Positions 5,143 through 37,466 of a DNA stretch of 64,000 nt are shown piece after piece. The stretch's first letter is position 1. The number at the start of each line of letters is the position of its first letter. Source of the DNA: Flammeovirgaceae bacterium UBA4465 (GTDB taxonomy: Bacteria > Bacteroidota > Bacteroidia > Cytophagales > Cyclobacteriaceae); NCBI GenBank assembly GCA_905182375.1, contig CAJJBF010000009.1, positions 45,984-109,983 of the forward strand, written 5' to 3'. A model generated the notes under the pieces. It was given only the letters and a program-made list of their open reading frames with translations. It did no database searches and was not told the origin of the DNA. The translations under genes were made by a program, and so were the position numbers.

Positions 5143-5622
5143 TTAGTCTTTTTGCATTTCATTATCATTTTCAACTTTTGCATTACGATCATCCACTGTA
5201 ATAGCCAGATGATGGGAACGCTTTCTTATCCTGTGCGCTCTACCTTGAGGAGCCGTACGCAATCTTTTCAACATCCGAGCGCTGTCTACATATATTTCTT
5301 TGACATACAAGTCAGCCTCTTCAATATTTACATCCTCATTCTTTAACTGCCAGTTGGCAATCGCAGATAACAATACTTTTTCTAAAATACTTGAAGCAAA
5401 CTTAGCGTCGAACTTTAAAACATTTAAGGCCACACTTACCCGCTGGCCCCTGATCATGTCGGCAACTAACCTCATTTTACGTGGAGCAGATGGGAAATTG
5501 CGTAGAGAAGCTGCCACGGCACCTTGTCGTCCAGAAATTGATTTTATAGCTTCCTTTTGTGCCTCCTTCTCGAGTCTGATCCTAACAGACTTTTTGATCT
5601 TTTTATTTTCTTTCGCCTCCAT
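5143..5622 (-). CDS. rplV: 50S ribosomal protein L22
   Basis: 159 aa, longer than the roughly 110 aa of E. coli L22 because of a charged N-terminal extension of about 35 residues ([20 protein letters not shown]...). The core begins near AVAASLRNFPSAPRKMRLVAD and carries the tunnel-lining beta-hairpin around RMLKRLRTAPQGRAHRIRKR. The start overlaps the rpsS stop by one nt. Confidence 0.95.
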   Translation of the reverse strand: MEAKENKKIKKSVRIRLEKEAQKEAIKSISGRQGAVAASLRNFPSAPRKMRLVADMIRGQRVSVALNVLKFDAKFASSILEKVLLSAIANWQLKNEDVNIEEADLYVKEIYVDSARMLKRLRTAPQGRAHRIRKRSHHLAITVDDRNAKVENDNEMQKD

Positions 5623-34547: not shown

Positions 34548-36638
34548 ATGAAAAAGACACCAAGGTCTAAAAAAAATATAATGGGAGATCCCAATCGTGG
34601 TAATTATCAAATTTGGATCATTAGCGCATTACTAGCGGCCATCATGGGATTTACGTATTTCAGTAAAAGCAACGCCGCTATTACCATAACTGAAAGAAGG
34701 TTTGAGGAAATGATGCTCAGTAATGATGTGGAAAAGGTTATTTTAATCAAAAATAAAGATCTTGTTGAAGTAACGCTCAAGCCAGATGCACTACAGAATA
34801 GTAAATATAAATTAGAACTGGAGGACAACCGGCTGAGCAATGGCCCCCACTACAAATTTAAAATTGTGGACGCCAAGATCTTCAATGACAATTTTAATCG
34901 TATCCAAGAAAAAATTTCTGAAGAGCGGCGACTAAACTATGAAATAGAAGAAAGGCAGGGCTTAGATGACCTCTTCTTTAATTATGGTTTTATCTTCTTG
35001 CTTTTGTTTGGTTTTTGGTTCCTCATGAAACGAATGTCCGGTGGCGGGGGGCCTGGGGGGCAGATATTTAACATTGGTAAGTCTAAAGCCGCTTTATTTG
35101 ATGCTGAAAATCAAGTGAAAACAACCTTTAAAGATGCTGCCGGCCTAGAAGAAGCTAAGGAAGAAATAAAAGAAATTGTTGATTTTCTTCAGAATCCAGA
35201 TAAGTTCACCAAATTAGGAGGTAAAATACCAAAAGGGGCTTTATTAGTAGGCCCTCCCGGGACAGGAAAAACTTTATTGGCTAAAGCTGTCGCAGGTGAA
35301 GCCGCTGTTCCCTTTTTCACCTTATCTGGATCTGATTTTGTTGAAATGTTCGTCGGTGTGGGTGCCGCTCGGGTGAGAGACTTGTTTAAACAAGCCAAAG
35401 AAAAGGCTCCTTGTATCATATTTATTGATGAGATCGATGCCATTGGACGTTCACGGGGCAAAGGACAAATGCCTGGTTCCAATGATGAACGTGAAAATAC
35501 CTTGAACTCTTTGCTGGTCGAGATGGATGGCTTTGCTACCGATGCAGGAGTGATCATTCTAGCAGCGACCAACAGGCCTGATGTATTGGATTCAGCCTTG
35601 CTCCGTCCTGGTCGCTTCGATCGACAAATAAGTATTGATAAACCAGATATTGTGGGTCGAGATGCCATCTTTAAGGTTCATCTAAAACCCATAAAATTTA
35701 ACAAAGAAGTCGATTCGCGCAAGTTAGCCGCCCAAACGCCTGGTTTTGCAGGTGCTGAAATTGCCAATGTTTGCAATGAGGCCGCGTTAATTGCTGCACG
35801 AAAAAATAAAGAAAATGTCGAAATGGTTGACTTTCAAGATGCCATTGATCGAGTCATTGGTGGCTTAGAAAAGAAAAATAAAATTATTTCGCCAGTAGAA
35901 AAGAAAATTGTTGCCTATCATGAGGCAGGTCATGCCATCGCGGGTTGGTTTCTTGAGCATGCAGATCCATTGGTCAAAGTAAGTATTGTGCCTAGAGGTA
36001 TTGCTGCGCTAGGTTACGCACAATATTTGCCAAAAGAGCAGTTCTTGTATCAGACAGAACAATTGATGGATGAAATGTGTATGGCTTTGGGTGGTCGAGC
36101 TGCAGAGGAAATAAAATTTGCAAAAATTTCTACGGGCGCGTTGAGTGACTTAGAAAGAATTACCAAAATGGCTTATTCTATCGTCTCAGTTTATGGTATG
36201 AATAGTAAACTTGGGAATGTTTCCTTTTATGACTCCAAACAATCTGAATACAATTTCAATAAGCCGTATTCAGATGCCACTGCCGAACTCATTGATGAAG
36301 AAGTCAAAAAGTTAATCAGTGATGCTTACAAAAGAACTTTGAATTTACTCAAAAAACATCAGGCTGAACTCGAAATAGTGGCTAAAGAATTGTTAGATAA
36401 AGAAATTATTTTTCAAGCAGATCTAGAGAGACTCATTGGAAAACGACCCTTTGAACAGCCTACTACATACCAAGCTTTTGCCAATCAAGAAGATCCTAAG
36501 AGAGTAGAAAATCCTGATCAAGAGGAGGATTTAGATAATGTGGTTGATGAATTAAAAAAGAATATTCTTTCCGAAATTAAGGAGGAGGAGTCCGGCCCTT
36601 CCAAAAAATCTACCACAGAATCTGATGATATTAAATAA
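34548..36638 (+). CDS. ftsH: ATP-dependent zinc metalloprotease FtsH
   Basis: 696 aa. A membrane-anchored hexameric AAA protease. Two transmembrane helices (about residues 23-40 and 141-160) flank a short periplasmic domain; then a Gly-rich linker, Walker [15 protein letters not shown] (about residue 233), Walker [14 protein letters not shown] region [20 protein letters not shown], and the zinc site HEAGH (about residue 457). The C-terminal tail is acidic. It is followed by a strong terminator. Confidence 0.98.
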
Positions 36639-36663
36639 GTCTATCAGATAATCATACTAAATT

Positions 36664-36686
36664 GGCCTCTCAAAGAGGCCTTTTTT
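36664..36686 (+). terminator. Intrinsic terminator after ftsH, abutting the lpxH start
   Basis: GGCCTCT (36664-36670) pairs perfectly with AGAGGCC (36674-36680) around a CAA loop, followed by TTTTTT (36681-36686). The next three bases are the ATG of lpxH. It begins about 25 nt after the ftsH stop. Confidence 0.92.
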
Positions 36687-37466
36687 ATGCAGAAGCTAAC
36701 CATAGATCTTGATCAAAATAAAAAAATATTCTTCGCAAGTGATTTCCATCTGGGTGCACCCAATAAAGAACAAAGTCGATCACGAGAGAAAAAAATAATC
36801 CGCTGGCTAGACGCCGTCGAAAAAGATGCAGCTGCCATATTATTAGTAGGTGATCTTTTTGATTTTTGGTTTGAATATGATCATGTTGTCCCCAAAGGAT
36901 TCGTTCGGTTTTTGAATAAATTAGCAGCATTCAGTGATAGGGGAATTCCTGTTTATATCTTTCATGGCAATCATGACATGTGGATGTTTGATTATTTAGA
37001 AACCGAAATTGGTGCTACTATTTTTTCAGATCCTATCGAGCTAATAGTAAATGATAAGTTTCTTTTTGTAGGACACGGAGATGGACTAGGTCAAGGCGAC
37101 TATACTTTCAAGGCCCTACGTAAAGTTTTCAGAAATAAGATAGCCCAATGGCTCTTTAAGTGGATTCATCCTGATATTGGTGTTGGGCTTGCGAACAAAT
37201 GGTCTTCTAGAAGTCGGATCAATAATAAGATAGAAAGTCAAGAAATCGATAAAGAAAAAGAATGGCTATTTTTATACTCACAAAAATTAGAATCTGATCG
37301 GCATTTTGACTTCTATGTCTTTGGACATCGACACCTACCCTTAGCATTGGAAATTAATAAAACATCTACTTACATTAATCTTGGAGAATGGCTAAATTTT
37401 AACTCATTTGGGGTGTTTGATGGTAAAAATTTTCTCATTGATTATTTTGAATCTGATGCCAATTGA
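36687..37466 (+). CDS. lpxH: UDP-2,3-diacylglucosamine diphosphatase (LpxH-type)
   Basis: 259 aa. It would hydrolyse UDP-2,3-diacylglucosamine to lipid X in lipid A synthesis. Metallophosphatase motifs are DFHLG (about residue 19), GDLFDFW, GNHD, and GHGDG with a final GHRH. The ATG sits directly after the T tract of the ftsH terminator, leaving no room for a separate leader unless transcription reads through. No other in-frame Met precedes the DFHLG motif. Assignment to lpxH rather than a related phosphatase is by overall pattern. Confidence 0.88.
   Translation: MQKLTIDLDQNKKIFFASDFHLGAPNKEQSRSREKKIIRWLDAVEKDAAAILLVGDLFDFWFEYDHVVPKGFVRFLNKLAAFSDRGIPVYIFHGNHDMWMFDYLETEIGATIFSDPIELIVNDKFLFVGHGDGLGQGDYTFKALRKVFRNKIAQWLFKWIHPDIGVGLANKWSSRSRINNKIESQEIDKEKEWLFLYSQKLESDRHFDFYVFGHRHLPLALEINKTSTYINLGEWLNFNSFGVFDGKNFLIDYFESDAN

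Follow-up and report, generated by a model that had tools for sequence, protein, structure and literature searches.

The ftsH-lpxH junction

The window analysed here is a stretch of 64,000 nucleotides from Flammeovirgaceae bacterium UBA4465 (contig CAJJBF010000009.1, positions 45,984 to 109,983), and all coordinates below count from its first base. Two open reading frames on the forward strand are of concern: ftsH (34548-36638, 696 amino acids) and, co-directional with it and starting 48 nt behind its stop codon, an lpxH-like gene of 259 amino acids (36687-37466). The stop codon of ftsH is followed by an AT-rich spacer of 19 nt (36639-36657), delimited on the sequence and on an alignment of the genus, and then by the octamer TAAATTGG (36658-36665), a candidate -7 promoter box whose last two bases are at the same time the first two of a stem. 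This stem belongs to the hairpin GGCCTCT-CAA-AGAGGCC (36664-36680), which begins 25 nt behind the ftsH stop and is defined by sequence, folding and covariation. It consists of a 5' arm (36664-36670), the 3-nt loop CAA (36671-36673) and a 3' arm (36674-36680), forming 7 bp with five G-C pairs and a folding energy of -10.7 kcal/mol. A tract of six T (36681-36686) comes next and touches the ATG of the lpxH-like gene at 36687. The original prediction, made from the letters of this window, had an intrinsic terminator abutting the lpxH start codon, and that layout is confirmed by the sequence.

The identity of FtsH is clear (NCBIfam TIGR01241, 803 bits against a cut-off of 600). The downstream protein, defined by protein comparisons, carries a Metallophos domain. 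We name its gene LpxH-like because the cut-offs of the curated NCBIfam lpxH models were missed (94.6 bits against 134, and 82 against 190), while a search of its own genome with the protein gives no match but itself, that genome (94.7% complete) yielded no LpxI domain, and the nearest solved structures are all LpxH, i.e. UDP-2,3-diacylglucosamine hydrolases (best E 3e-17); for brevity it is written lpxH below. Both lpxC and lpxB are present in the genome. Sub-cut-off scores such as that of 36687-37466 imply that automatic naming may miss lpxH in this family. In genome G003 (L006, L033, L037) the lpxH matches are split over two reading frames that join near residues 25-35, either by a frameshift or by an assembly error. 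A wrongly assigned lpxH start codon was considered and rejected: from the ftsH stop to the conserved core of the protein there is no other in-frame ATG, GTG or TTG.

The hairpin and its rarity in the genome

Folding energy by itself is unimpressive as support for the hairpin. The 82-nt stretch 36639-36720 folds modestly better than its shuffled versions (z -1.46, with 19 of 200 shuffles as good), terminator-like matches across 14 kb are near chance (12 against 10.3 expected), and an Rfam scan returned four tRNAs only in the window, with no match at the hairpin. Its position relative to the next gene was compared with the rest of the genome on a sample of 856,809 bases (32% of the genome), in which 21 terminator-like hairpins lie behind a gene and have a co-directional ATG within 400 nt. 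The shortest gaps from hairpin to ATG among those 21 are 4, 5, 6 (lpxH), 17 and 29 nt. At the hairpins with gaps of 4 and 5 nt the reading frame is open upstream through the hairpin, and in our judgement they lie within coding sequence; the lpxH hairpin is the only credible terminator so near a start in the 857 kb (32%) sampled. A T6 tract directly ahead of the first ATG is found at one of 712 starts, that of lpxH, and a genome-wide search for the same stem, allowing any 3-nt loop, gives two sites. The next-closest credible terminator, 17 nt before its ATG, also has a box-like sequence, TACTTTTA, at its 5' foot (L120, about 5340-5410 on the minus strand; near 195,356 of its own contig, C9).

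Conservation within the genus

The genus was sampled with ten genomes. Nine of them have lpxH and the tenth (81% complete) gave no match; G003, which shows no difference from the window in the compared stretch, is counted among the nine. In all nine loci the hairpin and its T tract abut the ATG, with T6 in seven, T7 in one and T5 followed by C in one. On the six distinct rows of the alignment 97.6% of stem cells are paired, against a shuffled mean of 90.3 (a value of 97.6 was reached by 2 of 500 shuffles), whereas sliding the arms by 1-3 columns leaves 24-76% paired and zero double changes. Both partners have changed in two stem pairs, where shuffles average 0.7 and 40 of 500 attain two, a count that is weak alone with six rows. 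Letters of both loop and stem vary among these loci while pairing persists, as in the most distant member (LpxH identity 66%, ftsH stop 92 nt upstream instead of 48), whose stem GGGCTTT-TTT-AAGGCCC has different letters, equal length and the same position. The outer six pairs have probabilities of 0.91-1.0 in 9/9 loci when folded in contexts of 60-200 nt, and no alternative pairing that would displace the stem was found in the last 60-200 nt of any of the nine. Genus conservation together with maintained pairing led us to reject a chance hairpin.

The junction thus has the elements of an intrinsic (Rho-independent) terminator close behind a stop codon: a GC-rich stem-loop with a T tract immediately behind it, and pairing kept despite base changes. 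Hairpin and T tract are best read, with near certainty, as the intrinsic terminator of ftsH, and we infer termination itself from these sequence properties. What separates it from the usual form is that the T tract of this predicted terminator touches the start codon of the next gene.

A promoter-like box at the foot of the hairpin

The octamer TAAATTGG is invariant in 9/9 genus loci. When compared with the Bacteroidota primary-sigma -7 element TAHHTTTG (PMC6847099), the TA, the HH, the TT and the final G match, that is, five of the six fixed positions, and the T at -6 is replaced by G. It also differs from that element in lying partly on a terminator stem and in being of a form that is not enriched in this genome, while its distance to the ATG equals that of perfect boxes in 14 loci of relatives (25-31 nt). 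TAAATTGG is thus not the strict element (TAHHTTTG 4-5 nt before the start), and since it matches at five of six fixed positions we call it promoter-like, and not a Bacteroidota primary-sigma promoter. A second motif, SM5 (TAnnTTGY), precedes LPS and gliding genes in F. psychrophilum (PMC9723704). TAAATTGG has TA and TTG at the SM5 spacing, and lpxH is an LPS (lipid A) gene, but it ends in G, where SM5 has C or T, in 9/9 genus loci, and SM5 comes from another class of Bacteroidota.

No other invariant run in the interval from ftsH stop to ATG is as long as TAAATTGG in the nine loci (8 columns, two of them stem), and 13 of the 25 columns before it, ftsH last codon and stop included, are invariant as well. 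Fourfold sites are invariant at 5/29 in lpxH (8 loci) and at 31/59 in ftsH (6 genus loci); given the latter figure, the conservation of the box may partly reflect slow change. It lies at -29, and in all nine genus loci the sole TAHHTTNG of the last 200 nt before lpxH is found at -29 or -30. The strict TAHHTTTG was not found in the 1,200 nt upstream of lpxH in any of the nine, and a promoter of lpxH inside ftsH was rejected on that ground. An E. coli-type promoter at 36625-36652 was likewise rejected: the scan for this type yields 49 matches against 46.6 expected, and the type is wrong for the phylum. No -33 TTTG element was seen upstream of TAAATTGG; this element is weak in F. johnsoniae (PMC6847099).

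Before genes of the same genome TAHHTTTG is enriched (40 on the forward strand, 11 on the other strand, 9.7 in shuffles), whereas TAHHTTGG is not (5, 4 and 3.5, respectively, for 434 starts) and TAHHTTAG, the form present in locus L154, is mildly so (17, with 11 on the opposite strand). Taken alone, the string TAAATTGG occurs too often to be informative: it is found 228 times over both strands, compared with 154 times for the reversed pattern. As a control for its position, a box at the foot was found in 4/131 terminators over 464 kb of this genome, that of lpxH included.

The ftsH-lpxH loci of relatives

The comparison was extended to relatives, mostly of the same family with a few from elsewhere in the order. 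Removal of duplicates, among them G003, and of loci whose lpxH has no ftsH in the 260 nt upstream reduced 189 rows to 81 loci. In 75 of these the interval from ftsH to lpxH has a terminator-like hairpin; it was not called in the other six, two of which (L015, L076) show a visible one and have a misplaced ftsH end. Outside the genus the spacing varies, and among relatives the distance from hairpin end to lpxH ATG ranges from 4 to 165 nt.

All 13 loci, from four genera, in which the hairpin stands 4-11 nt from the ATG have TAHHTTNG at its 5' foot, so placed that an RNA starting from it would begin inside the hairpin; 2 of the 62 remaining terminator loci have such a foot box. The position at which TAHHTTNG tolerates a mismatch was picked after seeing the data, a choice that is relaxed in a test allowing any single mismatch, where the foot box is present in 4/4 genera against 5/62 loci (p 0.00017). 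The control motif, read backwards, scores 3-4/6 at the same places. The strict box is found in three of the 13 close loci (L020, L173 and L174, one genus). L202 (genome G204), a relative of L174, keeps the perfect box TATTTTTG at the hairpin foot; its called ATG is 42 nt behind the hairpin, and the site that matches the ATG of its relatives reads ATTG.

A different layout is seen in 14 of the 62 loci with a farther hairpin, where a perfect TAHHTTTG follows the hairpin at 25-31 nt from the lpxH ATG. Judging from their sequences, terminator and putative lpxH promoter are two separate units there. In L180 and L210, TAAATTCG stands at -29 and -30, free of any hairpin and at the distance of TAAATTGG (-29), which suggests that lpxH had a promoter box of this form earlier. 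In a tree of LpxH built from 80 of the 81 loci, close spacing requires five changes, at least three of them forced by supported branches. As these changes could be gains or losses, several origins are likely rather than demonstrated. Common inheritance could account for the resemblance among the boxes of the window genus, L154 and L212, the last of which has a very long branch in the tree.

In seven loci (L076, L081, L088, L092, L101, L103 and L110) a common block, CGTTATTTGCA, ends a few bases before the lpxH ATG; it matches neither TAHHTTTG nor TAnnTTGY. In L014, L142, L193 and L197, by eye, TATTTTGC starts 11-12 nt before the ATG. It fits the SM5 form TAnnTTGY and, if active, would start the RNA at the ATG, i.e. 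would give a leaderless lpxH.

Transcription of lpxH

The explanation that we consider best, and to which we would give about an even chance, is that the ftsH terminator carries a superimposed lpxH promoter and that lpxH RNA starts inside the hairpin. In Flavobacterium the transcription start has been placed 4-5 nt after the box, or the box at -12 to -5 (PMC6847099, PMC9723704). A spacing of 4-5 nt from TAAATTGG sets the predicted lpxH start at 36670-36671, on the final base of the 5' arm or within the loop, and leaves a leader of 16-17 nt made of loop, 3' arm and U tract. An RNA of this kind would contain one base of the 5' arm or none, so the terminator cannot form in it. Transcripts would then be sorted as follows: RNA coming from ftsH has both arms and would fold and be released at the T tract, before the ATG, while RNA from the lpxH promoter, having the 3' arm only, would form no terminator and run through a short open leader into lpxH. 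About 30 bp would both insulate lpxH from ftsH and start lpxH. The predicted leader is ordinary in length beside published ones, with a median of 24 nt in F. psychrophilum (PMC9723704) and a commonest length of 23 nt in B. thetaiotaomicron (PMC7366714). With a 17-nt leader, opening the region from -15 to +15 would cost 4.6 kcal/mol, the median for other starts with an equal leader being 4.7. Against a superimposed promoter speak the two of eight box bases that double as stem bases, the restriction of the strict box to few of the close loci and the lack of enrichment of TAHHTTGG.

The promoter reading is favoured, and readthrough remains a real rival. If lpxH had no promoter of its own and were made only by readthrough from ftsH, the hairpin would be a leaky terminator setting a low lpxH:ftsH ratio, which we regard as rather unlikely but worth serious attention. 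The short distance between co-directional genes (48 nt; 92 nt for a single member of the nine) and the missing strict -7 box in the 1,200 nt upstream fit such an arrangement, and partially terminated transcripts form one of the classes listed for F. psychrophilum (PMC9723704). Folding of the readthrough RNA points both ways. Its narrower start region, -6 to +12, is unblocked (4.0 kcal/mol against a genome median of 4.7) and the hairpin makes no difference to its opening (3.8-4.3 kcal/mol), but the stem spans -23 to -7, and opening -15 to +15 costs 16.1 kcal/mol, like the worst 2.6% of 614 starts. In addition, U6 displaces A-3 and A-6, which are reported to aid initiation (PMC6847099), although an RNA with the short leader would be equally affected, and the separate perfect boxes behind the terminator in 14/62 loci of relatives also argue against dependence on readthrough. 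The original prediction had gone further and proposed that the hairpin could limit lipid A synthesis in relation to FtsH. Nothing that we found supports this idea: in relatives the hairpin ends anywhere from 4 to 165 nt ahead of lpxH, and the same 14 loci have their own lpxH box.

The original prediction had also left no room for a leader and offered readthrough or a leaderless RNA. The former statement holds only if the RNA starts outside the hairpin, and not for an RNA beginning where the 5' arm ends; as to the latter, readthrough is possible, a leaderless RNA is the least supported of the readings, and a start inside the hairpin, the option favoured by the comparison of loci, had been missed. 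Leaderless lpxH RNA, beginning at or beside the ATG, has some precedent in boxes of relatives 11-14 nt before the ATG (L188, L056, L098, and by eye L142, L014, L193 and L197). In the nine genus loci, on the other hand, TAHHTTNG is absent from the place that this would require. Such RNAs are also a minority elsewhere: 5.5% are leaderless in F. psychrophilum (PMC9723704), leaders below 10 nt make up about 3.7% in B. thetaiotaomicron (PMC7366714), and leaders of 10 nt or less 13% in F. johnsoniae (PMC6847099); we hold this reading to be highly improbable. Hardly more probable is a regulated lpxH switch, be it an attenuator or an element controlled by a protein or RNA, in place of a simple terminator. 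The hairpin and its spacing are kept across the genus, as a switch would have it, but no competing fold appears in the last 60-200 nt of the nine loci, nor does an Rfam match, the letters of loop and stem vary with pairing kept, and the spacing varies outside the genus. We see an equally slim chance that the terminator merely drifted to the start by compaction, without consequence, lpxH being transcribed from a promoter located elsewhere or of an unrecognised type. That TAHHTTGG is not enriched as a promoter box of this genome would agree with this, and the box-at-foot geometry, present in 13/13 close loci and 2/62 others, goes against it.

Relation to known arrangements

Overlap of the terminator with the start of the next gene is real and conserved, and overlap with its promoter is probable; a similar form occurs in three further genera. 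The parts are ordinary and their arrangement is unusual. That in this family terminator and next promoter have fused, perhaps several times, so as to sort transcripts by origin, is a broader proposal which we put forward tentatively, as somewhat less than an even prospect. If it is true, neighbouring genes can be kept transcriptionally separate with almost no intervening DNA, and annotation that takes a terminator set against a start for readthrough control, or for a wrong start codon, would be misled. The junction is, besides, a natural construct with which to find out what share of its 5' arm a terminator requires.

A terminator overlapping a downstream start or promoter was not described in the open-access titles and abstract openings searched, a weak negative given that the subscription literature lies mostly outside them, and no open-access paper was found on lpxH arranged with ftsH in Bacteroidetes. 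In Zymomonas, promoters inside upstream genes have been reported (PMC7566282), a different arrangement.

Among the relatives, L188 and L098 have TATTTTTG or TATTTTAG directly behind the T tract of the terminator, with predicted leaders of 1-2 nt. In these two loci the T tract seems to supply part of the putative promoter box, possibly a second way of merging the two signals.
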